A stretch of DNA of 40,008 bases from positions 1-40,008 of IMG/VR virus record IMGVR_UViG_3300043395_003425. The stretch is one strand, 5' to 3'. Positions 7,123 to 23,475 of this stretch are shown here, piece by piece; within the stretch, counting starts at the first letter, position 1, and each line of letters starts with the position of its first letter. The translations under genes were made by a program, and so were the position numbers. Under the pieces are notes generated by a model. The model worked only from the letters and a program-made list of their open reading frames with translations, was not told the DNA's origin and made no database searches. This DNA comes from a virus.

Positions 7123-7482
7123 TTATTTCTCAATCGGTGCGTTTTGTTGCTGAAGTCTGCTAGGTGCACCTGGTTGATAAACAATAATTCCTTCTTTTAA
7201 ATCAATTTGATGTCTTGGATATTTTTCTTCCAAAGAATCAATGATAGTTTTTAATTCTTTATTCTTGTCTTTGAATGCATCTTCACCTTTTTCAAGAATT
7301 TCATCCAATCTAACAAGTTCTTCATTTAATTCTTTTTTTCTAATATAGATTTGTCCAAAATCATTAACAATCGCGTTTAAATCGTTGTTGATTTCTTTAA
7401 TCTTTTCAATAATTTCTTGCTCCAATTTTACCGTTTCCAATTCAACTGAAGTTTTTTGTGGAATTTTATCTAATTCTGCCAT
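7123..7482 (-). CDS. Coiled-coil protein, paralogue of the 94-aa gene at 11592-11876
   Basis: A 119-aa, mostly helical, charged protein with a clear heptad character over residues about 15-85. It aligns end to end with the 94-aa product at 11592-11876. Shared positions include IIE-IK, DxN, D-GQ--xR-xELN-E--RL-EI, an ED pair, KYxxxxxDLK and G. It also has a longer C-terminal tail with QPGAPSRLQQQ. The two genes share an identical 15-mer in their 5' gaps. No catalytic motif is visible. A structural, chaperone or assembly role is conceivable because other small phage coiled coils act that way, but I cannot name it. It lies between the heptose-nucleotidyltransferase-like gene and the NMNAT-like fusion. 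Confidence 0.8.
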   Translation of the reverse strand: MAELDKIPQKTSVELETVKLEQEIIEKIKEINNDLNAIVNDFGQIYIRKKELNEELVRLDEILEKGEDAFKDKNKELKTIIDSLEEKYPRHQIDLKEGIIVYQPGAPSRLQQQNAPIEK

Positions 7483-7503: not shown

Positions 7504-7518
7504 TATATATAAGTATAT
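7504..7518 (-). promoter_or_regulatory. Promoter-like 15-mer ATATACTTATATATA (copy 2 of 3)
   Basis: This copy is identical to 3624-3638 and 11887-11901. It starts 21 nt upstream of the coiled-coil gene's ATG at 7482 and touches the stop codon of the upstream gene. Confidence 0.5.
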
Positions 7519-7907
7519 TATTTTTGGTTTTTTAAAATGTTTGTTGTACTATATCCAGATAATTTATCAAAAAATTCTACCTTTGGGATATATTCTACAC
7601 CTATTATTTGATGATATTTATAATCATTTCCAATTACCATAACATCAGGTTCCCATTCTTTTATTCTTTCAATGAGAGAATCATCAGAATCAAATTCTAC
7701 AACACTATTAACATATTTAATACTACGCAAAAACTCCATTCTATCTTCTAAGCAATTATACGGTCTACCATCTCCTTTCTTTTTAGAAACTCTTTCATCG
7801 GTATCAATCCCCACTCTAACATTTCCAAATTTTGCAGCATGTTCTAAAAGTTTTATATGTCCTATATGTAGAATATCAAATGTACCGTTTACCCAAACTT
7901 TTTTCAT
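7518..7907 (-). CDS. HldE C-domain-like (RfaE2-like) nucleotidyltransferase, probable heptose-1-phosphate adenylyltransferase
   Basis: A 129-aa protein covering a complete small cytidylyltransferase-fold domain. It has VNGTFDILHIGH with the HIGH motif at residues 14-17, GDGRPYN-LEDRM-FL around 45-60, GNDYK around 93-97, and STTNI at 120-124. The RPxN-xExRM segment and the STTNI end match the C-terminal domain of HldE/RfaE, which converts D-glycero-beta-D-manno-heptose 1-phosphate plus ATP to ADP-heptose. TagD-type glycerol-3-phosphate cytidylyltransferases have the same length and the HxGH motif but usually lack the RPxN segment. The start codon overlaps the stop of the TibC-like heptosyltransferase gene (TAATG), so donor synthesis and use appear coupled. 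There is no kinase domain; heptose 1-phosphate would have to come from the host. Confidence 0.82.
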   Translation of the reverse strand: MKKVWVNGTFDILHIGHIKLLEHAAKFGNVRVGIDTDERVSKKKGDGRPYNCLEDRMEFLRSIKYVNSVVEFDSDDSLIERIKEWEPDVMVIGNDYKYHQIIGVEYIPKVEFFDKLSGYSTTNILKNQK

Positions 7908-9049
7908 TATAAGAATTTTTCAAGTTCTTTTATTACCATATCTCCTGTTATTGTTTTAGTACACTCAAATTGTCTTTCCGTTCCTTTATGGTCTGGACAC
8001 CAATTCCAATCACCTGGATCTAATCTTAAACGATTAAAACATCCTTCACATTTTCCTTGCGGTGAACCAATACGAATACAATCTTCCATTTCAGCCCACT
8101 TATATGAAAATCCGCTTATTAAAACCGTTGGTACATCTAAAGCCCAACTTAACCAACTTAAACCACTACCAATTCCAATAAACGCGTGTGATTTTTTCAA
8201 CTCTCTCATCACATCTTCTATTGGTCCTTGTGGGTGTCTTTCTATACCAATAGGATGTTTATTACCCATATAATCATCTTGCTCTCTAGATATTAGTTTA
8301 ACTTTATATCCTTTATTATTTAGCCAATCAACTACTTCTTGCCATCCAGTAGGATTATTCCAAAATTTAGATTGGGCTGTACCAAATGTAGCTATACAAA
8401 TTTGTTTTTCTTTGCTTACTTTTTTAATGTTTTTAATTTTTGGTTTTACCTCTTTGAATTCTAATCCTAAAATATCCGAACACATTTTTTGAAGTGTTAC
8501 CGATTTAGGGTCTACCGGATTTTTAAAACGATTTATACTATTATCTTCGTTATAAAATAAACCTATTGTGTACATAGAATATAAATCAGTTACATTAGTT
8601 CCAGGTTCAACAAATTCTATTTCAGGATATTTTTCTCTAAACATATCATTCATAAATGTAGATGTAATCATCGTACAATTATAATGTTTTCTAAATTCAT
8701 CTACATAAGGAAACCAAGCCAACGAATCTCCTAAAGCTTTAGAATCTAAAGCTATATAAATTCTTTTACCAGTTGGATTAAATAAATGTTCAAACCAAAG
8801 TTTTCCATTTTCATATATCTGTATTTTCCATTCTACAAAATATTCAATACTACATCTACACCAACAATTATTATTTATTTCAGTAGAAAAATAAACTTTA
8901 CCATTTCTATTATCAATAAAGTTTACTAAATATTTTGCAGATTTAGACCCCTTAACTTCAATAAATGGTCCTTTGACAAAATGATAATGAACTTTGTTTT
9001 GTATTTCTACTTTATTGTTATTATTTTTAACTAAATTATCGTAAATCAT
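7907..9049 (-). CDS. TibC-like protein O-heptosyltransferase (BAHT/GT9-related)
   Basis: A 380-aa protein from the ATG at 9049. A TTG nine bases upstream extends the frame, but the ATG overlaps the previous stop as TAATG. An N-terminal beta-rich segment (about 20-95) precedes a GT-B heptosyltransferase fold. KALGDSLAWFP around 104-114 contains the Asp that corresponds to the catalytic-base region in TibC. IGIGSGLSWLSWAL followed by VLISGFS around 291-315 is the donor-site signature of the bacterial autotransporter heptosyltransferases. Four cysteines follow as C-x2-C-x13-C-x11-C (Cys334, 337, 351, 363, with WCP and FEC contexts), recalling the iron-binding cysteines of TibC. Known members attach heptose from ADP-heptose to serines of autotransporter adhesins in the cytoplasm. 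The acceptor here is unknown; Ser/Thr-rich fibre proteins are encoded nearby. Confidence 0.85.
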   Translation of the reverse strand: MIYDNLVKNNNNKVEIQNKVHYHFVKGPFIEVKGSKSAKYLVNFIDNRNGKVYFSTEINNNCWCRCSIEYFVEWKIQIYENGKLWFEHLFNPTGKRIYIALDSKALGDSLAWFPYVDEFRKHYNCTMITSTFMNDMFREKYPEIEFVEPGTNVTDLYSMYTIGLFYNEDNSINRFKNPVDPKSVTLQKMCSDILGLEFKEVKPKIKNIKKVSKEKQICIATFGTAQSKFWNNPTGWQEVVDWLNNKGYKVKLISREQDDYMGNKHPIGIERHPQGPIEDVMRELKKSHAFIGIGSGLSWLSWALDVPTVLISGFSYKWAEMEDCIRIGSPQGKCEGCFNRLRLDPGDWNWCPDHKGTERQFECTKTITGDMVIKELEKFL

Positions 9050-11226
9050 TAATCCCAAGTTTTAACTGTCAAATCTAAAAGAGAAAATCCTTCCGCTTGT
9101 TTTGAATACATTTTATTTGTAGTGTATCTATTTTTTGGATGATGATAAAATACATGATTATACCAAAGGTCACCAACATCCCAACCACAATCTTTTAACC
9201 TTTCCATCCACCACCCTTTTGTTCTATTCGGTATTAGATATGCATGTGCAAGGTCTTGATTATATGCAGTTTTGGTAAATAGTTCATCTACTTTTGTTTT
9301 TTCTCTTGATGGGTTATCCGCTAATCCAATAAAGTACACATCATCTCTTTCTGAGATGAAACACGCCTTATGTACAATATCTACAAATTCTTCTAATCCG
9401 GTATAAATAAATGCATCTGCTTCAAATATTAAAGTATAATCAAAGTTTTCATCATCTATTGTTTCTAATGCGTTTCTATGTGCCAAATAACAACCATAAT
9501 GTCTACCAGTCATCCAACCTAAACCAGCACCAGGATATAATTCACCTGGCTTATTATCTTTACTTATATGCTCAGGTCTTCTACAATTTTCTGCAGGTGC
9601 CAATCCTTCATAAACTTTATTTACAATTGGTTGATATACCATACCATATTTTTCCAATTGCTTTATTGATTTAATACTAACTCTTTCTCGCATATCATCT
9701 GGTCTGGTCAACATATGTTTGATTTGAATACGAGGTTTTCTTCTTACAAATGAACGAAATCCTGTATGGAATTGACCATAAAAAAATTCATTTGCCGCTG
9801 CAGTAACTCCGCCAAATACACCATAATCATCTCCACTAATAATTCCACCTGGTTTTATTTTTTTATACCAAATATTTAAATCTTCTATTAATGCTTCATA
9901 CGAATGCCCAGCATCTATCATAATAAAATCAATACTATTATTTGAAAATGTATTTGCTGCATTTTTAGATGTATCTTTTATAGTTTTTACTGTTTCATAA
10001 TTTTCCAATAAAACCATATTGTCTATAAATTCATAAAATATATCCCCATTAAAAGCATTAACTATACTTTGATGTAATTTCTCATCATCAGTACCCTTCC
10101 ATGTATCAATTGCGGTAAAATCAATATCTTTACCAGATTCTTTTATTTTACTTGCTAAATAATTTGTTGATTTACCAAACCAAGCACCAACTTCTACAAA
10201 TGTTTCGCCACCAATAGCATTATCAATTACACTATTATACAACTCTCTATATGCAAACCATCCTGGTACTTCATTAAATTCTGGATTTAATTTTTCTAAT
10301 ATAATTCTCTTAGTTATTTTTAAATCATCATCAATATAAGTTACCAATGAGTTATTATCATATGTATCCAAATAAGTGTGTAACTTTCGGAATATAGATG
10401 GAAGTTTATAACTCAATGCTTCTTTGATTGATAATGGATTTAATTCTAATTTAGATGAGAAATAAAATAGGTCTGATGCTGCATAAAATGTATCAACATC
10501 ATTTCGTTCTCCCCATATAACACAATTGGGTGGAACGTTTTCCATAAGTGGTCTCCAATAATTTTCATAATTCATAGCCTGATTGCCTACGAAATGAAAT
10601 TTAATTTTGTATTTTTCTAATTGTCTTGCTATTGCAAATATCTCAGCTTGATTTTTTCCAGGTGAAAATAATCCAACATTTAAAACATGCTTCCAATCAG
10701 ATTCAAACCCTAATTCTTTTTGAGCTTCTTCTTTATTAAATACATAATTTTCAATTGGGTATTCCCAAAGAGTTGTTTCTACTCCCAATTCGGCATCATC
10801 AAATCTTTGTTTACTCCATTCCGATACCAAAACGTATCTATCTGGATGATATACAATATCTACTGGATTTGTGAAAGAACCATGTGTAGTTGCTAAAATA
10901 AAGTAAGGTCTATCTTTTCTAAAAATTACATCCAATACAAATTCAGATAAATCAAATTGAGGTATTTCCTGAAAATGTATAATATCCGGATTAAACTTTT
11001 CAATAATATTAAGAATTTGAGATTTATCTTCCCCTAAAGTATGTACAGGTACTAATTCTTTAATTCTATTTTTTTGAACAACAAACGCATCACCACCACT
11101 ATTGTTTATTTCAACAACTTCTATTTCGAAATCGTTTACAAAGTGTTTAACCTGTTTAAAGGTATATTGTGGTTGTCCACCGGTCGATAGGTGTGGACAT
11201 ACATAAAGTAACTTTTGTTTTGACAT
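9049..11226 (-). CDS. Three-domain enzyme: GT4-like glycosyltransferase, SAM methyltransferase, GT25-like glycosyltransferase
   Basis: A 725-aa protein from the ATG at 11226 (a TTG three codons upstream also opens the frame). Residues about 1-315 are a GT-B, GT4-like glycosyltransferase: LLYVCPHLSTGGQ at the start, NVGLFSPGKN around 183-192, and an E-x7-E motif (KLELNPLSIKEAL, Glu261/Glu269). Residues about 320-485 are a class I methyltransferase of the Methyltransf_24/TylF kind: FVEVGAWFGKST, IDTWKG, MIDAGHSYEA, IKPGGIISGDDY. Residues about 515-725 resemble GT25 enzymes: GCYLAHRNAL around 578 and LIFEADA around 599, standing in for the usual metal-binding acidic motif. It could build and methylate a short glycan on one polypeptide. 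The product and acceptor cannot be read from sequence. Its stop overlaps the start of the TibC-like gene. Confidence 0.85.
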   Translation of the reverse strand: MSKQKLLYVCPHLSTGGQPQYTFKQVKHFVNDFEIEVVEINNSGGDAFVVQKNRIKELVPVHTLGEDKSQILNIIEKFNPDIIHFQEIPQFDLSEFVLDVIFRKDRPYFILATTHGSFTNPVDIVYHPDRYVLVSEWSKQRFDDAELGVETTLWEYPIENYVFNKEEAQKELGFESDWKHVLNVGLFSPGKNQAEIFAIARQLEKYKIKFHFVGNQAMNYENYWRPLMENVPPNCVIWGERNDVDTFYAASDLFYFSSKLELNPLSIKEALSYKLPSIFRKLHTYLDTYDNNSLVTYIDDDLKITKRIILEKLNPEFNEVPGWFAYRELYNSVIDNAIGGETFVEVGAWFGKSTNYLASKIKESGKDIDFTAIDTWKGTDDEKLHQSIVNAFNGDIFYEFIDNMVLLENYETVKTIKDTSKNAANTFSNNSIDFIMIDAGHSYEALIEDLNIWYKKIKPGGIISGDDYGVFGGVTAAANEFFYGQFHTGFRSFVRRKPRIQIKHMLTRPDDMRERVSIKSIKQLEKYGMVYQPIVNKVYEGLAPAENCRRPEHISKDNKPGELYPGAGLGWMTGRHYGCYLAHRNALETIDDENFDYTLIFEADAFIYTGLEEFVDIVHKACFISERDDVYFIGLADNPSREKTKVDELFTKTAYNQDLAHAYLIPNRTKGWWMERLKDCGWDVGDLWYNHVFYHHPKNRYTTNKMYSKQAEGFSLLDLTVKTWD

Positions 11227-11232
11227 ATATAA

Positions 11233-11240
11233 CAAATATA
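11233..11240 (-). promoter_or_regulatory. Promoter-like element TATATTTG
   Basis: The coding strand reads CGTATATTTGTTATATATG ahead of the ATG at 11226. It matches the Bacteroidota -7 consensus TAnnTTTG exactly and the local ATATTTAT element apart from its last bases. It would give a very short leader. Confidence 0.4.
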
Positions 11241-11264
11241 CGAAAAAAATTCGTAAATTCCAAA

Positions 11265-11564
11265 TTAATCTACCTCAGTTTGAGATAAATGTTTTATAAT
11301 AGTGTATCCTAAAAATTCACACAGTTTTTCAGCTAAAAACTCGTTTCTTCCTGTCCAACCATTTAGAATCTCTTGTGGAACTTTCCAAATTCCAGATGTA
11401 ATAATATCATCTGGCACAGCTGGTGAATTATTTGAATCTCTAAATCTAAGTTCGTATCTTAATCTACAATCATCAGTACCCAAATCATAACTCAAAACAT
11501 TAGTTAATACTCTGTTTATTGTTTGAGTTCCAAATGTGGATTCCTGTATTTTACTCTTTAACAT
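11265..11564 (-). CDS. Hypothetical 99-aa phage protein
   Basis: I do not recognise this product. It is a 99-aa mixed alpha/beta-looking protein with a centre rich in charged residues (CRLRYELRFRDSNN), a segment GIWKVPQEILNGWTGRNEFL, and a helical end (LAEKLCEFLGYTIIKHL). No signal peptide, transmembrane segment or catalytic motif is visible. It lies between a coiled-coil gene and the glycosyltransferase genes, with an ATATTTAT element 15 nt before its ATG, so it may start a new transcript that continues into the glycosylation genes. The open frame, tight spacing and element support a real gene. Confidence 0.7.
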   Translation of the reverse strand: MLKSKIQESTFGTQTINRVLTNVLSYDLGTDDCRLRYELRFRDSNNSPAVPDDIITSGIWKVPQEILNGWTGRNEFLAEKLCEFLGYTIIKHLSQTEVD

Positions 11565-11579
11565 TGTTGTTATTTTACT

Positions 11580-11587
11580 ATAAATAT
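11580..11587 (-). promoter_or_regulatory. Promoter-like element ATATTTAT
   Basis: The coding strand reads ATTATATTTATAGTAAAAT in the 27-bp gap between the stop at 11592 and the ATG at 11564. Such a short gap holding an exact copy of the element supports function. Confidence 0.5.
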
Positions 11588-11591
11588 AATA

Positions 11592-11876
11592 TTATTCAGA
11601 TACTTCGAAACTAACCGTACCATCCTTTAAATCAACTTCTGCATTTTTATATTTTCTTTGTAAATCGGAAAGAATATTTTCCAATTGCAATCCTTTATTA
11701 TCAATTTTGTCCTCTACTTCCTTTTTAATTTCTTGCAAACGTGCAATTTCTAAGTTTAATTCTCTTGTTCTCAACGTTACTTGTCCTAAATCAAAAATTA
11801 AACTATTTACATCACCCTGTAAGGTTTTTATACTTTCTATAATATCTTCTGATAATTTTTCAGTTTTTGTTGCCAT
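11592..11876 (-). CDS. Coiled-coil protein, paralogue of the 119-aa gene at 7123-7482
   Basis: A 94-aa helical, charged protein. Nearly its whole length aligns with the 119-aa protein at 7123-7482 (DxGQ--xR-ELN-E-RLQEI, ED, KY--xxxDLKDG). It lacks the Pro/Gln-rich C-terminal tail of that protein. The ATG at 11876 is preceded at 10 nt by the same 15-mer that precedes its paralogue. Function is unknown. The pair brackets the methyltransferase/heptosyltransferase genes, so an accessory or assembly role is possible but unsupported by motifs. Confidence 0.8.
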   Translation of the reverse strand: MATKTEKLSEDIIESIKTLQGDVNSLIFDLGQVTLRTRELNLEIARLQEIKKEVEDKIDNKGLQLENILSDLQRKYKNAEVDLKDGTVSFEVSE

Positions 11877-11886
11877 AAAGTTTGTT

Positions 11887-11901
11887 TATATATAAGTATA
11901 T
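11887..11901 (-). promoter_or_regulatory. Promoter-like 15-mer ATATACTTATATATA (copy 3 of 3)
   Basis: This copy is identical to 3624-3638 and 7504-7518 and lies 10 nt before the ATG at 11876. Confidence 0.5.
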
Positions 11902-11910
11902 ATTTTTTAA

Positions 11911-13908
11911 TTATTCAAAAATAGCAGAAGCACACCCTCTACAAATGGTTTCATATGATTTTTGAACCATTTTTATATGCTCATCAGTTCCCCAAAAATC
12001 TCTTAATTCCTGTGTTTTAAAATCTCCACATTGCATTTCCATATCATAATCATTACAACAAAGGAATGCTTTACCACTTGCATTTACATGAACCCATCCG
12101 ATTGGTCTACCACCAACTTCTCTACCATTTGCACATCCAATTACTTTTTTATCGGCAACATTTCTTTTTAAATTTCTTTCAATTGCAGGTTTATTACTCA
12201 TCACCTCATCCAACAATCCCGCTCTATCAATTAGATATGGAACCGTAAAAATATTTACACCAGGAAATAATTCTTTTGCTTTTTTCTCCTGTTGAACCAA
12301 TTCCCCATTATTAACATCCAAATCCATATCTTTTGGAAACTCTGGTCCTTTTTCTAACCAACCACCTTTATCACCAAAAGATAATTCATGTGAACCATTA
12401 ATTTGAATTGAAAACGCTTTTCTTTTTACCATATCAGATAATTGTTCAGTTGCGTATTTTATATTTGATATAAGTTTATCAAATTGTTTTATATTAATAC
12501 CACTTCTTTTACTCCAAGTTTCCGCGTCAAATGCAGGTGTATTCAAACATATACCACTTAATACATCTTGATATTTTTTTAATATATCAACTCTTTCCGG
12601 TGTTAATGGTATTCCATTTGAAAGTACCATTGTTACCAATTTATACTTTCTACATATTTTTAATATTTCTTCAAAGTGTGGATATAAAAGAACTTCATTA
12701 TAATGTGCCGTATAGAATCCATTGAATGCTTTACTAACCAACCCATCTGGTCTTTCTCTTTCATCTATAAGATTTTTAATAATTTTTTCAAATAATTCTG
12801 GACTCATTATTTCTTTTCCATGATCAGGATTACCTTTATATCTTACTGGACAAAACCAACATTTTGCGTTACATACACCATATGGGTCTATTTGTAAATT
12901 TGTAATTTTGTATTTGTTAAAATCATTCTTAATTTTACTTTCAGTAGTTTGTTCAATTAAAATAGATTTATTTGCAGTTTCACAAATTTCTTTCCAATAA
13001 TAAAAAGAAGCGTATTTATCACTTATTACCAGTGGTTTATTATAAGGAAGTTTGTCAGTAAATGCTCCTTTATAAAATAATCCTTTTGCATATGAATGTA
13101 CATGATTATTATCTGCAACAACACCGGCATTATGAAGTATTGGATATTTTTCTACATCTGATATTGAGTTTGTTACCCATCCAAAATCTAACCTTTTATC
13201 TACTATGGTTTCATGTCCTGCCAACCATGCATTCCATAATAAAGACCACATTCCTGCCGTCCATTTTTGTATTGGATAATCGTGTTCATCTTTTTTAACA
13301 TGCTTATATTCATTATCACAAAACCATTTGTATAAATTTATACTATCCTTTTCAACTTTATCCCAAAATTCGTATGTAGTATTTTTAACTATATATTGTG
13401 CCCCACCTGAATTATTATTTAATATTTTTGGTATCAATGGGTCTATACCTATGATTTTACACATATTATCATAAACATAATCTCCTTTTGATTTTATATA
13501 ATCATAATTTATATAAAACTTGGTATCACTTAAATACCAAGTGTTTCCAATAATCATTTCATCAAATTTAGGAGGCTTAGTAAAAACTATATCTGAATCA
13601 TGTAAAAATAAAACATCATCTTGTATTTCAGGTCTTGCTACGATATGTTGTTTCATTAAATTGAAATAAATGGATGGCTGATAATTTTTATCAGTTCTAG
13701 TATCATTATAAAAAAAGAAACGAACACTATTATAATGCAGCATTAATTTTCTCCATTCATCTGGAATTATACCATTTTCTATCCCACAAACTATATCAAT
13801 GTAGTTTGGGTTTACTCCCATTTTTTTGAAGTTATTAATTAATACTTCAACTTGCCAAGTATAATAAGTAATTGCCGGTTGACAACAAATATATCTTAAT
13901 TTTTTCAT
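11911..13908 (-). CDS. Glycosyltransferase-like domain fused to radical SAM/SPASM enzyme
   Basis: A 665-aa protein. Residues about 1-290 look like a GT-A glycosyltransferase. LFLHDSDIVF puts a DxD-type DSD at 104-106, NNNSGGAQY falls around 164-172, and WTAGMWSLLWNAWLAG and ILHNAG follow downstream. Residues about 335-530 are a radical SAM core with C-x3-C-x2-C at Cys346/350/353 (VCNAKCWFC), which binds the 4Fe-4S cluster that cleaves S-adenosylmethionine. The end (about 590-665) is SPASM-like, with cysteines at 592, 617, 618, 627, 656 and 659 (LCCND, CGDF, CRGCAS) able to hold auxiliary clusters. SPASM enzymes often modify peptides or sugars. Together with the downstream glycosyltransferases this points to modification of a protein or glycan; the substrate is not evident. 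It starts 35 bp after the polythreonine gene. Confidence 0.85.
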   Translation of the reverse strand: MKKLRYICCQPAITYYTWQVEVLINNFKKMGVNPNYIDIVCGIENGIIPDEWRKLMLHYNSVRFFFYNDTRTDKNYQPSIYFNLMKQHIVARPEIQDDVLFLHDSDIVFTKPPKFDEMIIGNTWYLSDTKFYINYDYIKSKGDYVYDNMCKIIGIDPLIPKILNNNSGGAQYIVKNTTYEFWDKVEKDSINLYKWFCDNEYKHVKKDEHDYPIQKWTAGMWSLLWNAWLAGHETIVDKRLDFGWVTNSISDVEKYPILHNAGVVADNNHVHSYAKGLFYKGAFTDKLPYNKPLVISDKYASFYYWKEICETANKSILIEQTTESKIKNDFNKYKITNLQIDPYGVCNAKCWFCPVRYKGNPDHGKEIMSPELFEKIIKNLIDERERPDGLVSKAFNGFYTAHYNEVLLYPHFEEILKICRKYKLVTMVLSNGIPLTPERVDILKKYQDVLSGICLNTPAFDAETWSKRSGINIKQFDKLISNIKYATEQLSDMVKRKAFSIQINGSHELSFGDKGGWLEKGPEFPKDMDLDVNNGELVQQEKKAKELFPGVNIFTVPYLIDRAGLLDEVMSNKPAIERNLKRNVADKKVIGCANGREVGGRPIGWVHVNASGKAFLCCNDYDMEMQCGDFKTQELRDFWGTDEHIKMVQKSYETICRGCASAIFE

Positions 13909-13943
13909 AACATTTAAAATTAACTTTTTAATAAATTTTTATT

Positions 13944-15266
13944 TTACCAACATCCGGCACAAGAAGTTTCACTTCCGCCTGGGAATAATGCGTAATTTGC
14001 AGGTCCGTAATAACCACCCAATCCATATTGCGAATACAATTGCCCATTATATGTATAACAACCCGGAGTATATCCTTCAATAACCTCTAACGAATAAACT
14101 GGTCCAGTATATGCACTACCGCCTGTACAAGGTTCGTAATCATAATATACATATGTAGGAGCTGAGGTAGTTGTTGGTGGAGATGGACATGAAGTACAAT
14201 TTGTTCCAACAAAGCTAGAGCCATCACCCAAATCAATATCATAAGAAGGTCCAAATGTAGTTCCAGTCAATCTAACACACACATATTGGGTGGCAGTTTC
14301 AAATACACTATAAAGTGATTGGTCAACACTAAATCTCACAACCAAAGGAGTTGCAGTACCACAATATTCAGCACTATAATAGAAATAAGATGGTCCTGCA
14401 GTTGTAGTTGTAGTAGTTGTTGTGGTTGTTGTGGTTGTTGTTGGAGCTTCAGTTGTAGTTGTTGTGGTTGTTGTTGGAGCTTCAGTTGTAGTTGTTGTAG
14501 TTGTTGTTGGAGCTTCAGTTGTAGTTGTTGTAGTTGGTGCTGCCGTAGTAGTTGTTGTAGTTGGTGCTTCGGTTGTAGTTGTAGTTGTTGGAGCAGCCGT
14601 AGTAGTTGTAGTTGTTGGAGCAGCAGTAGTAGTTGTAGTTGTTGGAGCTGCAGTTGTGGTTGTTGTGGTTGTTGTAGTTGTAGTGGTTGTTGTAGTTGTA
14701 GTGGTTGTTGTAGTTGTAGTGGTTGTTGTAGTTGTAGTAGTTGTAACCGATAAACAAGTTCCCTTATCATCTAAAGTACCATTATCACTTATTATAAAAT
14801 AATATGTTCCATTTGAATAGTATCCATTAGGAGCCGGTGTTGTTAATCCACTATCCGTAAATATTTGTAGAGTATTTTGTAAAACGGTACCACCAAAAGA
14901 ATAATAAGTTGTTGGTGATGATGCAAAATCATAACAAGAATTTGCAGCTGAAGAAGCATCATATCCCAAACTAAATGATGATGGTGCTAACGTTGTTGTA
15001 GTTGTGGTTGTAGTTGGTGCCGCAGTTGTAGTTGTTGTAGTTGTAAAAGTAATAGATGACGATGAACAATCACTTGCAGAAGTACCAAAAGTTTCTACAA
15101 CAGATCCAGGAGGAACGGTATATTCTCCATCTTGTGCGGAGAATATTATTGACCCTATTTTTGAAGGTACAAATATAGTAACTTCATATCCTTCACATTC
15201 TGTCCAAGTTACATCTCCGGATGTTCCATTTGGTAAAGTTACTCTATATAGTGTTGATGCTGGCAT
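13944..15266 (-). CDS. Polythreonine, mucin-like multidomain virion/adhesin protein
   Basis: A 440-aa protein of small beta-type, cysteine-containing domains joined by Thr-rich linkers. Domain 1 spans about 1-72. A linker of T, A and P leads to domain 2 (about 95-173, with GYYSNGTYYF and paired Cys). Then comes about 30 consecutive Thr and repeated units AAP or EAP plus six to eight Thr (about 174-290), domain 3 (about 292-365) and a final Tyr/Gly-rich domain with five Cys. There is no signal peptide or transmembrane helix. Thr/Pro linkers of this kind are classic O-glycosylation substrates in other systems and occur in phage fibres. It follows the 2483-aa fibre and its chaperone-like neighbour and precedes the glycosyltransferase genes, which makes it the best candidate acceptor. 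That link is inference. Confidence 0.85.
   Translation of the reverse strand: MPASTLYRVTLPNGTSGDVTWTECEGYEVTIFVPSKIGSIIFSAQDGEYTVPPGSVVETFGTSASDCSSSSITFTTTTTTTAAPTTTTTTTTLAPSSFSLGYDASSAANSCYDFASSPTTYYSFGGTVLQNTLQIFTDSGLTTPAPNGYYSNGTYYFIISDNGTLDDKGTCLSVTTTTTTTTTTTTTTTTTTTTTTTTTTTTTTTAAPTTTTTTAAPTTTTTTAAPTTTTTTEAPTTTTTTAAPTTTTTTEAPTTTTTTTTEAPTTTTTTTTEAPTTTTTTTTTTTTTTAGPSYFYYSAEYCGTATPLVVRFSVDQSLYSVFETATQYVCVRLTGTTFGPSYDIDLGDGSSFVGTNCTSCPSPPTTTSAPTYVYYDYEPCTGGSAYTGPVYSLEVIEGYTPGCYTYNGQLYSQYGLGGYYGPANYALFPGGSETSCAGCW
14665..14736 (-). repeat. Four perfect tandem copies of an 18-bp unit inside the polythreonine run
   Basis: On the plus strand the unit is GTGGTTGTTGTAGTTGTA, at 14665-14682, 14683-14700, 14701-14718 and 14719-14736. 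Each copy encodes six Thr on the minus strand. Further imperfect 27- and 33-bp units (AAP/EAP plus Thr) continue down to about 14400. Because 18, 27 and 33 are multiples of three, copy-number change would alter linker length without a frameshift. Confidence 0.9.
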
Positions 15267-15749: not shown

Positions 15750-18700
15750 TTATCTTGATAATACTACAAAATCAACAAATTCGGTTGCTGCGGTTAAGCT
15801 TAAGTTACCACCTATCCATGTTGTTACAATACCTGGATTTGTATGACTAGGTCTTTCTATTCTAAAATTAAAACCAGTAGTACTTTTTCCGGTAATTGTG
15901 GCTATATTACCAATTTCATTTGAAGCATACGTTATGTTTGATATTGTAAATAGAATGATATAATCCGTAGTATCCAAAGGATTGGTAAATGTTATAACAT
16001 ATCTATTGAATGTATCTAAACTCAATGTACTACTAATATTATAACGATTTAATATAGTATAATTTGCAGCATTATTAGAAGCCGTTCCGTCATATCTCAC
16101 AGTACCAAACGCCTTTACTGCCGGTGGGTATCCATATCCATTACTAAATTTGGATATAGCTCTATCAACCATTAAACTACCAGTAATTTCGGTTGAAAAA
16201 TTATAAGAACCACTAGTACCAGAAGTTACTCTTAAATACGCAGAATCATCTATAACCGATTGGAATCCACCTCCGTTTATTACAGTACCAGCCGATAAAG
16301 TTTTAATACTCACCGTTCTTGATGCTGAATTAGTTAATGCAGTATAAACCGTGGAATTAAATCCATAAGGTGGATAATTATTTGAATCAGATGTATCTTG
16401 CGAATGGGCGTATGCATATCCTACATATGTCAAATAATATGTTACTCCAGATTGTAATTCTGCTATTATTGTCATTTTTGCTGCCGGTAGATATGAAGTT
16501 TGTCCACTTGGATAATATGATTGTGTCCATTGAAATCCATTCCATTCCCAATAAGTGTTTACCGTACCTTGCGCATATGCCTGAACAGCATTTGAATCTG
16601 CTACATATTCGGTGAAGTTTTGTGGCCAGTATCCAGTTTTAGATAATCTTAAACGTGCGGTGATGAATCCATCCGCTGAACCATTCGCTTGAACATAATT
16701 ACCATAATCAAAAGGAAAATTCACTGTAATTATATGAACTCCTGATACCGTAGCCGTAAATGAGCCATTAGAAGAAGGTTGTATATAATAATCATATGCA
16801 ACAGTACCACCATAATATGGGTCATAAGTACCATCATTTGGTACACCATTTGTTTGTGTAGATGATGTGGTAAATGTACCAATAGTTGCATTTGAATAAC
16901 TTACACCGATTGGGTCCGGTAATGTTTTTTTAGTAGAAGCTAAAAATCTTAATTGACCTTCATCATCAAATACCGAAATAGATTCTGATGGTTCTGAATA
17001 TAATTGAATATTTTGATTAGAGGAAATGATTGATCCAGGTGAAATTGTCCATCCACCAATTTGTCCATTATTTGTATTAATTGAACCTTTTATTGATAAA
17101 TCTTCACCATTCCAAACCAAAGAACCAGATACACCAATCATAGATACTTTTGGTATAGTTTGGTCAAATCCCATAAAAATACCATTATTATTAAATCCTT
17201 GAACTTGGGATTCGGTTACCCATCCATTGAATATACTAGAACTTATCTGTCCTATTGAAATGTATGGATTTGCGTTTGAACCACTTTCATTTGCATTTAA
17301 AGTAATCAATGCGTTTCCACCCCTTGCACCAATATTAATTGTTTTATCAACATATTGTTCTACCGCAAAAAGTACATCAGTTGCTACAGAACTAAATTGA
17401 GCTCCAAATGTAGTCCAATTCGTGTTACCACCTCCAGGAAAATTCCAAAACAATCCAGAACCAGCCGTACCCGCACTTCCGTTAAGACCAGTATTATTTG
17501 TTAAATAATAGTTACTTCCATATTTTACAATATCTTTTCTTTCGGTTGTGTGAAAGTAATTATTATTACCCGCAAACAATCCTCTATAAACAACACCAGG
17601 TCCAGGCCCACCTGCAGTTCCAGTTGTGCCAGCCGTTCCAGTTGTGCCCGATGTACCAGTTGTTCCAGATGTGCCTGCCGCAGCCGAAACTGCCCAAGTA
17701 TTTGTTGCATCTGGCGGATAACCTGTATTTACGTTATTATCATTAGTTGATGTGTGTGTATTTGAATTTATATATGTTGAAACACCGTATCTTACAGTAT
17801 CATCAGGATAATAAGCTGTTGCTGGTGCCCAAATACCTCTATAACTTCCTTCAGGTATACCAGGCTCTCTTTGTCTGATTGAACCAACTATTGTTAATTG
17901 GTCACCATCCCAAAACATACCTTTACCAGATGTACCGGTTGTTTTAATTGAAAAACGTCCTGTTGTACCATTTGCACCATCCTCATATACTCCTAAGAAT
18001 ATACCAGGTCTATTATACCCAATAACACCGGCCCCACCAATCGAAACCCCAGTTCCTTGAGTACCCTGTGTTCCGGTTTGTCCGATGGCAATATATGGGT
18101 CAGTTCTACCACCTGCTAATACAATATTTGCAAAAGCACCAGTTCCATCTTTTGTACCAACGTTTAAAGTATTTTTTACATAAGATTCTTCAAATATTGC
18201 AATTTTAGCAGATACAAAAAATTCTTCTTGTCCCAAATACTGCCAATAAGCAGTATCAGCGTAAGGAACGGTACCATCTGGTTGTTGTGCCCCAACTGGT
18301 GTTCCAGGTCCACTACCCGTTATTGCCGCCCAATAGTGTGTTTCTTTATTTATAGTTGCTGGGTCTGGCCAAATTACTGCATCCCTTCTTTGATTTGCAG
18401 TTTCCGCAATATAATCCAATGTAGATTTCCAAACCCCTCTCATCACTATACCAGGACCAGTATTACCTTCATATACTACCGATAATGATAAAGTTTTATA
18501 AAGTGTTTCTCTACCCTCACAATCGATTTGGAATACAATTTCACCCGATGCAATTGTTTCAGGACTAGACCATCCAGTTATACCTGCAAATGATGCTGGT
18601 GTTCCCGAAACATGTGAACCTGCGGTTAATCCACCGGCTAAAGTTAAATGTCCCGAGTATGATAAAATACTTACTCTACATTGATTTGGATAGCCGAGAT

Positions 18701-21700
18701 TACCATAAGCATCTAACTTACCACCACTAAATGATGAAACGTTTGTTAATTCTAAATCACCTCTAAAAACTCTTATAGTTGTTGTAGATAGGTCAAATTC
18801 TAATTCGCCCGAAACTCTATACATTATTCCACCATTTTCACTAGATAAGTTTGCACTATACGGTGCCGGTGGAGTAAATTGTACTGCAATTGACTGAGTT
18901 ACATAAGAAACTTGTTTTGCGTTTTCAAAATCAATTTTATAAATAACTTGTCCAGATTTGTTAATAGCCGGTGCGTACCAACTTCTTAAATCAGGCAAAG
19001 TTGCGGGGTTAGATGGTGGAAATTTACTTCCACTCACACCCACAAATGAAGATGATGTAAATATTGATGCAGAATAGTATCCTAAGTTTCCTAAGAAAGT
19101 TCCATCCAAATAGTTATATACTTCCTGAGATGGAACATATGAGGATGTATGTTCTAATGGGTCAGGCCCTTTAAATCCTCTTATCTGAATAGAACTTCCA
19201 GAAAATTCAGTTGTCCAAAGGTCTGCTGTAATAGAAGTATTTTCATTTGTTGCATTGAATGAATATGCATCTGCTCCAGTTTTTACACCTGCAATTGAAA
19301 TTTCTGCGGCTGCTCTAATAGGTTGTGCAGCCGCATTACTACCATCCCTTATAGTAACTTTCCATGTTGCAGTTTGACCAGGCAAAGTTGCATTGTATGA
19401 TGGAACGGTATATGTGTTTGAAAGTTGAATACCCGTTTCTGGACTACCATCTTTGAAGAATTGATAATATACCGAACCGGTTGTATTAAACGCTGTAGCG
19501 GTTAGTGTAATATCATCCAATGGAGATGTAACTTGTCCATCTCTATCAAAATTTACAAGTTGAGAAGTTGCGGATAATGATACTGCTCTTGCATTTGGTG
19601 GTGCAACATTTTTAGTAAACGTTTGTGTTCTACTATATAAAGAAGATGTATATTGATGTCCCGCACCCAATGCATATGGATAAACCAATATATTGTAAAG
19701 TACACTTGCAGATACATATGGGTCATCAAATTTTCTAAACCTTAATGTTGCCGTATCAAATGAAGATGATGATAATGATTGTGTTGCTATATTACTTCCA
19801 CTTGCTAATGTAATTCTCCAAGTACCAGGAGCTGCAGATTGTGTTGTAAAAGTTAAGAAATCATTTCCTTCTCTTACTCTAATTGAAGTATCAGCACTTC
19901 TATAAGCAGATTCAGAAACATATCCTATTTCATTTGCGTTTATAGTTGCATTAAGAGGTGATATAATAATTTCAATCGGTGGAGGTCCATCCAAAACTTT
20001 TGTAAAATATTGGTAAACACTTGCAGTATAAACCGAAGATGTATAATATGGTTGTATTTCTAAAGGAAATTGAATACTTCCACTTAAATTAGTCATATTT
20101 GAAGATGCACTAAAAATAAGTGATTCAGTATAATTATTATCAAATCTTATATCACCTTTAGTAATATTATTTGCTACAATTGATGCAGTTGCAATATGGA
20201 AAGTTCCTGGAAACCTACTACCAGTAAATAAAAGATATCTTGAACCCTGTTTTAATCTTATTTCTCCGGCAGATGGTTTATAATCATTTACAATACCTCT
20301 TGAATTTGCATTTAGGTTTACATTTGCAGGAATTATCTCAAACACAATACTTTCATCTCCAGGTTTTCCTTCAGGAACTATTGTAAATGTTTTATTAACA
20401 CTTACCGATTCCGATGAGTATGGTTCGATGTAAGTCCAATTAATAGTAAGAGTTTTACTTTGAGATATTGGATTTCCTACAAATTGACCAAAAGGTTTTG
20501 ATGGAATTATAAAATTATTATCATCAGTTGCTACAACGGTAATGTCTCTATTAAAACTTTGTGTTGTGTAGTAAACCCAATATTCAGGAACATAATCTTT
20601 GTTAATTGACATTGACGGATAAACCATCACGGATCCAGATATTGGATTGATATTTGTACCTCTTCTGTAAAACGATGCAGTTGCACTAGCAGAAGGTGGT
20701 GCAAAAGTATTTGAAAGTCTTGGATTAATTGTAAATGTATCGGCATCATATGCAACAAATCCCGCATCCAAACCATCCAAAAGGTCAGTAAGAGTTAGTG
20801 TTGCGTATATTGATGCTGTTAATGATGGTTGAGATGGAGTTGGTTCAGAGCCAGAACCAATTAAATAAATTGTTCTCTGCCCATCTATTGAATCTCTATT
20901 AAAAACCGCGTTATAATCTAATTGACCAGACCCCGTTAATCCAGGATAAACCCCTTTAACAAATCCACTAGCTGATGCTTGCGTTAATGTTACATAGTAA
21001 GAACCAGATGCAACATATAATCTATTATTAGAACGCCCATATGGTAAACCACTTCGTATATTTAATTCATTAATACCATCAATTCTTACAGCCTGTACTT
21101 CTAAAGAACCAGATGGGTCATTATTTCTAATTACAGTTCCTCTATATGGTCTAATCTCATAATTTACACCACCTTTACCATCAATTACTCTTGTAATTAC
21201 AAATGAATCAGTTACACCTTCACATTCACCTGTAAATTCAATATATTGAACAATGACATCTTCTCTAGAGCCAGTAAAGTTACTAACAGTAAGAGTAACT
21301 AAATCTGTTTCTCTGTTCAATAAAAGACCTGGCATTTGTCCTCCAACATATTGGGATGAAGATAATTCATTTCCAAAAAAGTCATAAGAACGAGATGTAT
21401 ATGTTACTGAACCTGTCAAATAACTTTTAATTACATCAATAGAAATTACAGTAGGTGGTACAGGATTACCATTTCCTGAACCAGAATCAAATTGAAAATA
21501 TAGATTTGAAGGTACTAAACTTAAATTTTTATTAATAACATTCAGATTACCACCATCAAACGTTTTACTTTCTTCAACAATTACAGGTATGTAATTATTA
21601 TTTATATCATAAAATTGAAATCTGAAATCAAATGTTTCTCTTGGTAATGTTCTAGGAATTGGTTGGATAAATGTTATTTCATCCGGAGAAAATGATGTTT

Positions 21701-23201
21701 CTTGGGAAGCTCTTAGGCTGACATCGGATATATACCAATCAGTTCCTTTAACTTCAAAAACTAATTTTACATTCGATAAATCTTCTGCTTTAAAATTTGC
21801 ATTAATTTCAGATTTTTGAAGTAAACTATTATCTGAAGTTAATGTAAGAATATTTTGTGTAGTTCCTACACTTGTAATTACATTATTAAAGGTAGATTGT
21901 CTTGAACCACTTAGATAAACTTTTAAACTATCAGAAGTATTAGCCGGACTACCAACTCTCGCATTAAATGTTAAACTATATTCTGTATTTGGACTTATAT
22001 CCAAAGATTTAGATGTAAAAAATAAATTTGTTGTTGAAGTATTTAACTTTACAGAATTGTATAAATAATTTTGATTAAATTGCGTTGTGATATTATTAGA
22101 TGAAGTTAACCAGTAATTTTTATAATTAAAAAGGTCAAAACCACCATAATATTCTTCATTTTTTGTTGTAGTTTCTAAATCTCTTAAAACTTCATTAGAT
22201 TCTAATTGTATTTCCTGAATAAATTGATAATCGGAAAGGTCTGATTGTGATTTTCTAAATATCTTTACTCTAGCAACATCTCCAACAAATGTTGTTAAAT
22301 CGGATAATGTTATTTTTGCAAATGAACCTGTAAGTGCTGTTTTTAAATTATCTAATCCTTCTACATAATTAAATGATGCGGTATATCCTTGATTAGAAAA
22401 ATCAGAAACTAAACCATTAACGGTATAAGGAGTTTGTATGTATAAATCGGTTTTATTTATAACATCCGATGCAATAGAAGAAAATCCTAAATCCGCAAAT
22501 TGAATTGTTGTACCCACTACCGAACCCGTCCAAGCACCACCATCATTTATTTGAATTAAATAATTTGTTGGATTAGAAAAATCAGTTAATTTTACACCAG
22601 CTTGTGGTACCTGTGCAAATCCATCTACAGTTCCTTTCTTTGTAATATTAGAAACAATGTTCGAATAAATAGGTTTTACTATTTCGTTTATTGATACTTG
22701 TGGTCTTCTATAAAATCTTACTTTATCTTCGTTAGATAATAGTTTATTTATTTTAAATCGTTTTTCCCACTTTACATTATAAACACTTTTCCATTCATCT
22801 GGAATTGGAAGTGTATTACCACTCTCATCCACATAAGTTTTTAACTCACCTAATATTGTAATATTCGCTTCCCCAATAGGTGTATCTTCATATACATAAA
22901 CCGCTATAAGTTTTGAAGCACCTTCATAATACTCTGGAACGCCATTTCCTGGCTCATAATAAACAGGATTACCATTAACATCTAAAATTTGTATTTTTAT
23001 TTCAGTTGATTCTTTTAGATGCTCAGTACCTTCAATTAAAAATCCATTTTTACCACCTGTAAAAGTATCCTTAAATTCAGTTATTTTAAAATAAGTTGAA
23101 TTTGGATTACTGTCTATGATATATGTTTGAAAAGAACTTAATTTTACTACTTCATTAAGATTACTTTTCTGGCCATCTGCGTATTTTTTAATTCTAGGCA
23201 T
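15750..23201 (-). CDS. Giant tail fibre / receptor-binding protein (2483 aa)
   Basis: A 2483-aa beta-rich protein with many Ser/Thr/Tyr/Asn. The N-terminal 700 residues contain several Ig- or carbohydrate-binding-like units. The middle (about 900-1450) has tandem Ig-like repeats with recurring NATINANE/NVNLNANS and GTxxI patterns. Three segments (about 1580, 1780 and 1870) resemble CBM5/12-type modules (RGxW/F, then Y, then DxVxY). A Gly-X-Thr collagen-like stretch (GTSGTTGTSGTTGTAGTTG) lies near 1840. Two copies of an IxIGQ...GIFxG...GxxxWxGxxLxIxGSI module follow at about 1670-1770 and 1920-2010, then GGWTIS and a C-terminal domain typical of phage fibre tips. No peptidase, lyase or autocleavage motif is visible. 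It probably forms the long fibre that contacts the host. Its ATG at 23201 follows an ATATTTAT element. Confidence 0.88.
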   Translation of the reverse strand: MPRIKKYADGQKSNLNEVVKLSSFQTYIIDSNPNSTYFKITEFKDTFTGGKNGFLIEGTEHLKESTEIKIQILDVNGNPVYYEPGNGVPEYYEGASKLIAVYVYEDTPIGEANITILGELKTYVDESGNTLPIPDEWKSVYNVKWEKRFKINKLLSNEDKVRFYRRPQVSINEIVKPIYSNIVSNITKKGTVDGFAQVPQAGVKLTDFSNPTNYLIQINDGGAWTGSVVGTTIQFADLGFSSIASDVINKTDLYIQTPYTVNGLVSDFSNQGYTASFNYVEGLDNLKTALTGSFAKITLSDLTTFVGDVARVKIFRKSQSDLSDYQFIQEIQLESNEVLRDLETTTKNEEYYGGFDLFNYKNYWLTSSNNITTQFNQNYLYNSVKLNTSTTNLFFTSKSLDISPNTEYSLTFNARVGSPANTSDSLKVYLSGSRQSTFNNVITSVGTTQNILTLTSDNSLLQKSEINANFKAEDLSNVKLVFEVKGTDWYISDVSLRASQETSFSPDEITFIQPIPRTLPRETFDFRFQFYDINNNYIPVIVEESKTFDGGNLNVINKNLSLVPSNLYFQFDSGSGNGNPVPPTVISIDVIKSYLTGSVTYTSRSYDFFGNELSSSQYVGGQMPGLLLNRETDLVTLTVSNFTGSREDVIVQYIEFTGECEGVTDSFVITRVIDGKGGVNYEIRPYRGTVIRNNDPSGSLEVQAVRIDGINELNIRSGLPYGRSNNRLYVASGSYYVTLTQASASGFVKGVYPGLTGSGQLDYNAVFNRDSIDGQRTIYLIGSGSEPTPSQPSLTASIYATLTLTDLLDGLDAGFVAYDADTFTINPRLSNTFAPPSASATASFYRRGTNINPISGSVMVYPSMSINKDYVPEYWVYYTTQSFNRDITVVATDDNNFIIPSKPFGQFVGNPISQSKTLTINWTYIEPYSSESVSVNKTFTIVPEGKPGDESIVFEIIPANVNLNANSRGIVNDYKPSAGEIRLKQGSRYLLFTGSRFPGTFHIATASIVANNITKGDIRFDNNYTESLIFSASSNMTNLSGSIQFPLEIQPYYTSSVYTASVYQYFTKVLDGPPPIEIIISPLNATINANEIGYVSESAYRSADTSIRVREGNDFLTFTTQSAAPGTWRITLASGSNIATQSLSSSSFDTATLRFRKFDDPYVSASVLYNILVYPYALGAGHQYTSSLYSRTQTFTKNVAPPNARAVSLSATSQLVNFDRDGQVTSPLDDITLTATAFNTTGSVYYQFFKDGSPETGIQLSNTYTVPSYNATLPGQTATWKVTIRDGSNAAAQPIRAAAEISIAGVKTGADAYSFNATNENTSITADLWTTEFSGSSIQIRGFKGPDPLEHTSSYVPSQEVYNYLDGTFLGNLGYYSASIFTSSSFVGVSGSKFPPSNPATLPDLRSWYAPAINKSGQVIYKIDFENAKQVSYVTQSIAVQFTPPAPYSANLSSENGGIMYRVSGELEFDLSTTTIRVFRGDLELTNVSSFSGGKLDAYGNLGYPNQCRVSILSYSGHLTLAGGLTAGSHVSGTPASFAGITGWSSPETIASGEIVFQIDCEGRETLYKTLSLSVVYEGNTGPGIVMRGVWKSTLDYIAETANQRRDAVIWPDPATINKETHYWAAITGSGPGTPVGAQQPDGTVPYADTAYWQYLGQEEFFVSAKIAIFEESYVKNTLNVGTKDGTGAFANIVLAGGRTDPYIAIGQTGTQGTQGTGVSIGGAGVIGYNRPGIFLGVYEDGANGTTGRFSIKTTGTSGKGMFWDGDQLTIVGSIRQREPGIPEGSYRGIWAPATAYYPDDTVRYGVSTYINSNTHTSTNDNNVNTGYPPDATNTWAVSAAAGTSGTTGTSGTTGTAGTTGTAGGPGPGVVYRGLFAGNNNYFHTTERKDIVKYGSNYYLTNNTGLNGSAGTAGSGLFWNFPGGGNTNWTTFGAQFSSVATDVLFAVEQYVDKTINIGARGGNALITLNANESGSNANPYISIGQISSSIFNGWVTESQVQGFNNNGIFMGFDQTIPKVSMIGVSGSLVWNGEDLSIKGSINTNNGQIGGWTISPGSIISSNQNIQLYSEPSESISVFDDEGQLRFLASTKKTLPDPIGVSYSNATIGTFTTSSTQTNGVPNDGTYDPYYGGTVAYDYYIQPSSNGSFTATVSGVHIITVNFPFDYGNYVQANGSADGFITARLRLSKTGYWPQNFTEYVADSNAVQAYAQGTVNTYWEWNGFQWTQSYYPSGQTSYLPAAKMTIIAELQSGVTYYLTYVGYAYAHSQDTSDSNNYPPYGFNSTVYTALTNSASRTVSIKTLSAGTVINGGGFQSVIDDSAYLRVTSGTSGSYNFSTEITGSLMVDRAISKFSNGYGYPPAVKAFGTVRYDGTASNNAANYTILNRYNISSTLSLDTFNRYVITFTNPLDTTDYIILFTISNITYASNEIGNIATITGKSTTGFNFRIERPSHTNPGIVTTWIGGNLSLTAATEFVDFVVLSR

Positions 23202-23298: not shown

Positions 23299-23475
23299 AT
23301 GAAAAAATATGCTATGATACAAATTGATGCCGAAATTCATCAACTTTTAAAGGAGTTTTGTAAAGAGAAAGGATACAAAATAAATGGGTTGGTAGAAACC
23401 CTTATAAAAGAAAAGGTAGAAGCTTCAAAGAAACCTCTACCTAAAAATATATTACCGGTTAATCCTAAAAATTAA
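23299..23475 (+). CDS. Small ribbon-helix-helix type DNA-binding protein
   Basis: A 58-aa product, MKKYAMIQIDAEIHQLLKEF followed by CKEKGYKINGLVETLIKEKV and a Pro/Lys tail. It is the only gene on the plus strand. The pattern is a short beta strand (AMIQID), a helix (AEIHQLLKEFCKEKG), a turn (YKIN) and a second helix (GLVETLIKEKVEA), as in Arc/MetJ/CopG family regulators, which dimerise and insert the paired strand in the major groove. The 3' end overlaps the Mre11/Rad50 fusion gene tail-to-tail by 11 nt. The upstream 10-bp-phased CTAAAGA repeats are a plausible operator. A plus-strand regulator between the fibre and recombination genes may control the switch between them. The fold call comes from sequence pattern only. 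Confidence 0.75.
   Translation: MKKYAMIQIDAEIHQLLKEFCKEKGYKINGLVETLIKEKVEASKKPLPKNILPVNPKN

Follow-up and report, generated by a model that had tools for sequence, protein, structure and literature searches.

Two side-by-side putative protein O-glycosylation modules in a probable Bacteroidota jumbo phage, one of them linked to poly-threonine tails of phage virion proteins

Gene content of the locus

The DNA analyzed here is the complete 40,008-bp IMG/VR virus record IMGVR_UViG_3300043395_003425 (hereinafter, the window), which encodes, in one direction, a protein rich in poly-threonine (poly-Thr) runs, a glycosyltransferase (GT) fused to a radical SAM/SPASM domain, a three-domain GT and methyltransferase (MT) protein, a TibC-family enzyme and a sugar-1-phosphate nucleotidyltransferase-like protein (Table 1). 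We argue that these genes form two modules: module A, in which an enzyme of the phage protein family phrog_4417 (here denoted GT4417) would glycosylate poly-Thr tracts, and module B, in which the TibC-family enzyme would modify a second virion protein. The main genes of the window are all on the minus strand, with the portal and terminase genes to the left, and with a fiber-like protein gene and replication genes in the right part.

A first-pass annotation of this DNA described these five genes as a single O-heptosylation system. The genes are real and had been read correctly, all on the minus strand, and profile searches bear out the domain content ascribed to them, including the combination of an N-terminal phrog_4417 domain with radical SAM and SPASM domains that both exceed the family cutoffs. 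The TAATG overlaps described for the last three genes are likewise present at both junctions, so that the actual start of the TibC homolog is probably the ATG at 9049 (380 aa). Two additional small open reading frames (ORFs; 11265-11564 and 11592-11876), absent from that annotation, are located between the radical SAM gene and the three-domain gene.

Table 1. Coordinates of the predicted glycosylation genes and associated features in the window
Coordinates	Strand	Feature	Evidence and remarks
7123..7482	-	Small coiled-coil-like protein, 119 aa (cc119)	Paralog of 11592-11876
7518..7907	-	HldC/HldE-C-like sugar-1-phosphate nucleotidyltransferase (module B, optional)	TIGR02199 best family; phrog_7878 4e-37
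7907..9058	-	TibC/BAHT-family O-glycosyltransferase (module B)	TIGR04414; PDB 4rap/4rb4 1e-57
9049..11235	-	GT4-methyltransferase-GT25-like three-domain protein (module B)	PF00534, PF13578, GT25-type fold; lineage core
11265-11564		Small ORF	Between radical SAM gene and three-domain gene
11592..11876	-	Small coiled-coil-like protein, 94 aa (cc94)	Paralog of 7123-7482; phmmer cross-matches cc94/cc119, synteny
11911..12948	-	Radical SAM/SPASM domain, fused to GT domain	PF04055, PF13186 above cutoffs
12949..13908	-	GT4417 domain, fusion residues 1-320	phrog_4417; GT-A fold, predicted poly-Thr O-glycosyltransferase
13944..15266	-	Poly-Thr protein, 440 aa	Globular domains linked by Thr runs up to 31; predicted module A acceptor
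15750..23201	-	Fiber-like protein, 2483 aa	phrog_5073 tail fiber 1.5e-5; synteny; candidate module B acceptor
17595..17675	-	Ser/Thr-rich collagen-like triplets GTSGTTGTSGTTGTAGTTGTAGGPGPG in fiber	Speculative module B acceptor

Independent assortment of the two modules

Among 80 viral contigs that encode a close homolog of the TibC-family enzyme, the gene order is constant: fiber, small coiled coil, GT4/MT/GT25, TibC, (HldC), small coiled coil, a 1138-aa-type protein, terminase large subunit (TerL) and portal, with the two small paralogs on either side of the GT4/MT/GT25-TibC-HldC block in almost every relative. Only about 10 of these 80 contigs also encode the poly-Thr protein and the radical SAM fusion, and in about 60 relatives, TibC and GT4-MT-GT25 occur without any poly-Thr protein. 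When loci were sampled by TerL instead, 17 of the 19 with enough upstream DNA were found to encode GT4/MT/GT25 (or GT4/GT25) together with TibC, and in an eighteenth, TibC lies just beyond the flank (18/19 total). TibC and GT4-MT-GT25 are near-universal in the lineage of the window.

Anchoring on the radical SAM fusion revealed a poly-Thr ORF directly upstream in every locus that retained the N-terminal domain and upstream DNA; these loci include those of phages that lack TibC and ones in which the GT and radical SAM domains are encoded by separate genes. Poly-Thr and GT4417 occur without TibC in a series of loci (L170-L181), in Chryseobacterium MA9V-3 and in Firmicutes phages. Furthermore, loci retrieved by a DNA pattern for poly-Thr contain GT4417 in 12 of 120 cases and TibC in 0 of 120, whereas those retrieved by a pattern for Gly-Thr-Ser repeats contain TibC in 10 of 120 cases and GT4417 in one of 120 (p = 0.0016 and 0.0027 for the two contrasts).

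The five genes are thus two separable modules and not one pathway, contrary to the single system originally proposed. Given that poly-Thr tracks GT4417 in TibC-less phages, and that TibC occurs without poly-Thr, the enzyme that acts on the tracts is most probably the phrog_4417 GT and not the heptosyltransferase, for which the poly-Thr linkers had been suggested as an acceptor. The genes, whose co-occurrence the first-pass annotation had put forward as a check, are neighbors in about 10 relatives; the TibC block is usually found without the poly-Thr protein and the fusion. CAIWBA010000291.1, a 254-kb contig binned as Bacteroidetes that may belong to a jumbo phage, contains a phrog_4417 gene; a 924-aa frame in this metagenome-assembled genome (MAG), perhaps on that very contig, includes a TibC domain.

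Module A: a predicted GT-A enzyme and its poly-threonine partners

Threonine makes up 33% of the poly-Thr protein of the window, with 106 residues in runs of at least 5. The threonine codons are mixed (ACA 54, ACT 39, ACC 10, ACG 3), which is also the pattern elsewhere in the genome; poly-Thr is therefore no mere DNA-repeat artefact.

The GT domain of the fusion matches phrog_4417 (E-value 8.3e-60, residues 5-310), a family without an assigned function that is represented in more than 500 viral contigs; sequence searches yielded no Pfam match and no solved PDB structure for this domain. In Foldseek comparisons, an AlphaFold (AF2) model obtained from a 12-sequence input (predicted local distance difference test, pLDDT, 88.1; predicted TM-score, pTM, 0.89) shows a GT-A fold, with the catalytic domain of UGGT (GT24) as the best match, followed by WbbM, XXT1, LARGE1 and glycogenin (GT8), and viral structure models agree with this placement. 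Residues D104 and D106 (DxD) and H259 are invariant in 15 sequences from Bacteroidota to Firmicutes phages. The domain accordingly models as a GT-A glycosyltransferase that shares the fold and the DxD motif with UGGT, glycogenin and other GT8-type enzymes but shows no sequence similarity to them that could be detected (TM-score about 0.5).

The C-terminal half of the fusion contains a radical SAM domain (PF04055, 41.4 bits against a cutoff of 29.5; CxxxCxxC at residue 346), with a weak PDB match to BtrN, and a SPASM domain (28.2 bits against 21.5). Such a partner, a separate gene in several relatives, accompanies GT4417 in just 7 of 80 viral loci and is therefore likely to be an optional tailoring step that would act on the sugar or on the peptide. 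Relatives of this half also occur alone in many phages (L182-L243), sometimes in tandem, and 8 of 57 solitary radical SAM loci have a poly-Thr tract upstream.

The association between the tracts and the enzyme extends far beyond the lineage of the window. A tract, defined as 9 or more Thr among 15 consecutive residues, on the same strand and at most 1.5 kb upstream, accompanies GT4417 in 55 of 69 viral contigs, 21 of 34 bacterial genomes and 7 of 7 isolated phages, compared to 0/76 TibC-anchored, 0/123 TerL-anchored and 8/57 radical SAM-anchored control loci without GT4417 (8/256 in total; Fisher test, 4e-40 and 6e-17, p values that overstate independence, given the kinship among the loci). 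Six further isolates, VPE25, bIL285, TPWB06, 1706, PT94 and 4995_1, are all tract-positive in the retrieved region (13/13 isolates in total), and their tracts sit on or overlap a virion gene. In Firmicutes phages, the tracts are the exact C-terminal tails of PHROG major head proteins (phrog_10, 840, 29) and major tail or tube proteins (phrog_88, 2645, 238, 6686); the same holds for a small protein with no assigned function (phrog_749) in the connector position. One Virgibacillus prophage encodes three poly-Thr-tailed proteins, and in phage 1706, a near-identical tail, TTTTTTTTTHHD, is present on both the capsid/protease and the major structural (tail) protein.

The tails and the enzyme are gained and lost together. 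Among homologs of a major tail protein (159 genomes of one bacterial family), 7 of 7 tailed versions have the GT gene immediately downstream and 23 of 23 untailed versions lack it, without a discordant case (p = 5e-7); in the untailed loci inspected, the slot of the missing GT holds other small ORFs. For an unrelated major head protein, sampled in a second family (398 genomes), the homologs comprise 7 cases with both, 14 with neither and 0 discordant (p = 9e-6). Because tail and enzyme covary without exception in two protein families, we infer that GT4417 enzymes glycosylate the poly-Thr tracts, i.e., that phrog_4417 is a family of poly-Thr O-glycosyltransferases decorating virions.

In three loci without the GT (L734, L735, L737), the major head homolog ends in an Ig-like-looking extension in the place where the poly-Thr tail otherwise sits. 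In other loci, major tail or head genes beside phrog_4417 are overlapped at their 3' end by a poly-Thr ORF in a different frame (L246 3117-3930, L724 2164-2926, L722 ~2740, L249 ~3766), which suggests that programmed frameshifting might add the tails to some subunits.

Module B: a TibC-family enzyme with a putative heptose donor pathway

The TibC homolog scores 290.9 bits against TIGR04414 (Aah/TibC; equivalog cutoff 200), compared to 31.3 bits for lipopolysaccharide (LPS) heptosyltransferase models, in agreement with the initial assignment. Structural and mutagenesis work on TibC identified the catalytic base D110, residues T226, K230 and W305, the iron-finger cysteines, and R286, which contacts the adenine and is required in TibC (PMC4358343, Yao et al., 2014). 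All 77 phage sequences retain D110, T226, K230, W305 and the four cysteines of the iron finger. The phage enzymes differ from the BAHT (TibC/Aah) enzymes at position 286, with V in 75, I in 1 and R in 1 of the 77, so that ADP is the likely but not certain donor nucleotide; some distant phage homologs retain R286. They also differ in the coupling to GT4-MT-GT25 and HldC/HldA-like genes, with no autotransporter or acceptor-repeat match; hallmarks of the BAHT family include a dodecameric assembly, transfer from ADP-D,D-heptose to Ser and a partner autotransporter with strand-loop-strand repeats.

GT4-TibC fusions recur in unrelated large phages, namely Mel-JY01, LR756501 (735 kb) and two further contigs; the GT4/TibC pairing is therefore old, and relatives are encoded by at least 535 viral contigs. 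In the three-domain protein of the window, the GT4 (PF00534, 41.3 bits) and Methyltransf_24 (PF13578, 69.1 bits) domains predicted at first pass are above the Pfam cutoffs, and the GT25 domain fails by score (PF01755, 19.4 bits against a cutoff of 24) and holds by fold: the top named Foldseek matches of a moderate model (pLDDT 71) of the C-terminal domain are to COLGALT1 (E-value about 1e-5), albeit with 14% identity and with EAD in place of the EDD-type motif.

For the HldC-like gene, domain II of HldE (TIGR02199) is the best family, at 101.8 bits against a cutoff of 181.5. Next in order, in 27 of the 76 lineage loci, comes a gene for an HldA-like kinase (247-253 aa), for which the heptose-7-phosphate kinase domain of HldE is the best family in 6 of 6 cases tested (E-values 1e-24 to 1e-30, below the cutoff); the one kinase compared matches PDB 4e84. 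The kinase is never found without HldC, HldC is alone in 15 loci, including the window, and 34 loci have neither. The pairing supports donor synthesis, for which the remaining steps would come from the host. Of the earlier proposal that the phage makes ADP-heptose itself, the donor step is accordingly supported, and the HldE-C assignment does not reach the TIGR02199 cutoff. The sugar transferred by TibC is likely to be heptose from an ADP-heptose-type donor.

The most likely acceptor of module B is the fiber-like protein, the constant 5' neighbor of the cassette in this lineage. A scan of the fiber against NCBIfam, which contains a model of the TibC acceptor repeat, gave no match; of the other four large proteins of the window, three had none and one matched only NMN-adenylyltransferase models, so the search for TibC-type acceptor repeats in these proteins found none. 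In distant TibC phages, Ser/Thr-rich collagen-like ORFs with (Gly-Thr-Ser)n repeats are significantly enriched, being present in 16 of 21 clusters vs 9 of 127 control loci. Fibers of the window lineage contain 0-11 Gly-Thr-Ser triplets, with none in 9 of 33, and therefore these collagen-like repeats are kept only as a speculative acceptor. Mel-JY01 has a 1016-aa ORF with long Gly-Thr-Ser repeats on the plus strand (L082 2-3050), whereas the annotated genes that it overlaps are on the minus strand; this region may have been annotated on the wrong strand.

Lineage and other genes of the window

The best relatives of TerL are those of Flavobacterium phage immuto (57%) and Microcystis phage Mel-JY01 (54%). 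Given that close relatives of the window are up to 266-274 kb, it is probably a fragment of a freshwater Bacteroidota jumbo phage, with Bacteroidota as the predicted hosts. Moraphages, as described in PMC12619734, are also large freshwater phages with predicted Bacteroidota hosts and possess four core GT groups with an unexplained role. HSP70/DnaK (PF00012) has no match in six related large records (266-299 kb), so that DnaK does not support assigning the lineage to moraphages. Among the other genes, 23465-26620 encodes one 1051-aa protein with SbcD-like N-terminal and SbcC-like C-terminal PHROG matches, apparently a fusion of the two nuclease subunits, and 31481-36490 encodes a 1669-aa protein with no match in PHROG or NCBIfam.

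Discussion

These observations suggest, with a probability of roughly two in three, that the window encodes two cytoplasmic O-glycosylation modules side by side, A acting on poly-Thr and B, of the TibC type, on a second virion protein. In module A, the phrog_4417 enzyme, here fused to radical SAM/SPASM, would add sugars to the threonines of the poly-Thr protein encoded immediately upstream and, elsewhere, to the poly-Thr tails at the C-termini of major head, tail-tube and connector proteins, so that virions would carry sugar brushes with a possible role in adsorption or shielding. In module B, the TibC-family enzyme would place the first sugar, most likely heptose, on Ser/Thr of a virion protein, most likely the fiber, using an ADP-heptose-type donor finished by the HldC-like adenylyltransferase, and the GT4-methyltransferase-GT25 protein would lengthen and methylate the glycan. 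The central idea of the first-pass annotation, phage-encoded glycosylation aimed at virion proteins, is thus retained. A broader view, which we consider tentative and slightly less than an even bet, is that dedicated low-complexity tags and dedicated enzymes (poly-Thr with phrog_4417, Gly-Thr-Ser collagen-like repeats with TibC-GT4) can be moved among capsid, tail tube, connector and fiber, in some cases probably via frameshifting, and represent a widespread modular trait of phages ranging from Bacteroidota jumbo phages to Firmicutes siphophages.

Several points weigh against this interpretation. All functional claims rest on sequence, fold and covariation, and the poly-Thr protein of the window is itself only a predicted virion component. 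GT4417 is present in only 12 of 120 pattern-anchored poly-Thr loci, which leaves many poly-Thr proteins with a different partner or with none. In module B, R286 is replaced in nearly all of the 77 enzymes, the HldC-like and kinase scores are below the equivalog cutoffs, HldC is absent from nearly half of the lineage, the fiber has no match to the acceptor repeat, and the triplets are sparse or missing in the fibers of relatives.

Among the alternatives, the poly-Thr tails could be unmodified flexible linkers, with the adjacent GT acting elsewhere, on DNA or the cell wall. Such tracts do occur without GT4417; however, the perfect joint gain and loss in two protein families, the TTTTTTTTTHHD tail on two unrelated phage 1706 proteins beside a GT, and the position of the GT immediately downstream of the tailed gene make this very improbable. 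A single pathway, with TibC heptosylating the poly-Thr linkers and the remaining enzymes lengthening the glycan, would fit the adjacency of the genes in the window and in about 10 relatives but not the 60 or so TibC loci without a poly-Thr protein, the phages in which poly-Thr and GT4417 occur without TibC, or the pattern-anchored counts; we rejected it in view of the independent assortment of the modules and rate it as quite improbable. It also seems unlikely that the module B enzymes act on host LPS or another surface glycan, for superinfection exclusion, and not on a phage protein. The HldE, GT4, GT9 and GT25 families also build LPS, and Bacteroidota MAGs with related contigs possess HldE domain II, but the best match by far is the protein O-heptosyltransferase equivalog, the iron-finger motif specific to that family is present, and the cassette lies between fiber and terminase genes.

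Glycosylation of phage virions is not in itself new: in the mycobacteriophages Che8 (gp108-110), Corndog and Myrna, phage GTs modify the C-termini of capsid and tail-tube proteins (Freeman et al., 2023, as cited in PMC12619734 and PMC12363180), a likeness to the tails described here. Neither a poly-Thr/GT4417 pairing nor TibC was found reported there. The Che8 gp108-110 proteins score near or below 0 bits against the GT4417 and TibC profiles and are thus unrelated to either by profile; gp110 has a weak 6.7-bit match to the GT25 profile. In the open-access literature, nothing relevant was found on poly-Thr/phrog_4417 pairs, phage TibC or phage heptosyltransferases, and the poly-Thr/GT4417 enzyme-acceptor pair is undescribed in the literature searched.

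Among the 74 deposited phage genomes with a phrog_4417 gene, most label it "hypothetical protein" or leave it without a name; the family hence gains a proposed function and acceptor, and the TibC family of protein heptosyltransferases, hitherto known from adhesins, is extended to large phages. Virion glycosylation, so far a trait mostly of mycobacteriophages, would become predictable from sequence, by a poly-Thr tail and a neighboring phrog_4417 gene. This suggests that many phages may possess dedicated threonine tails at which their particles are decorated with sugars, which would bear on the understanding of phage surfaces, adsorption and particle recognition.

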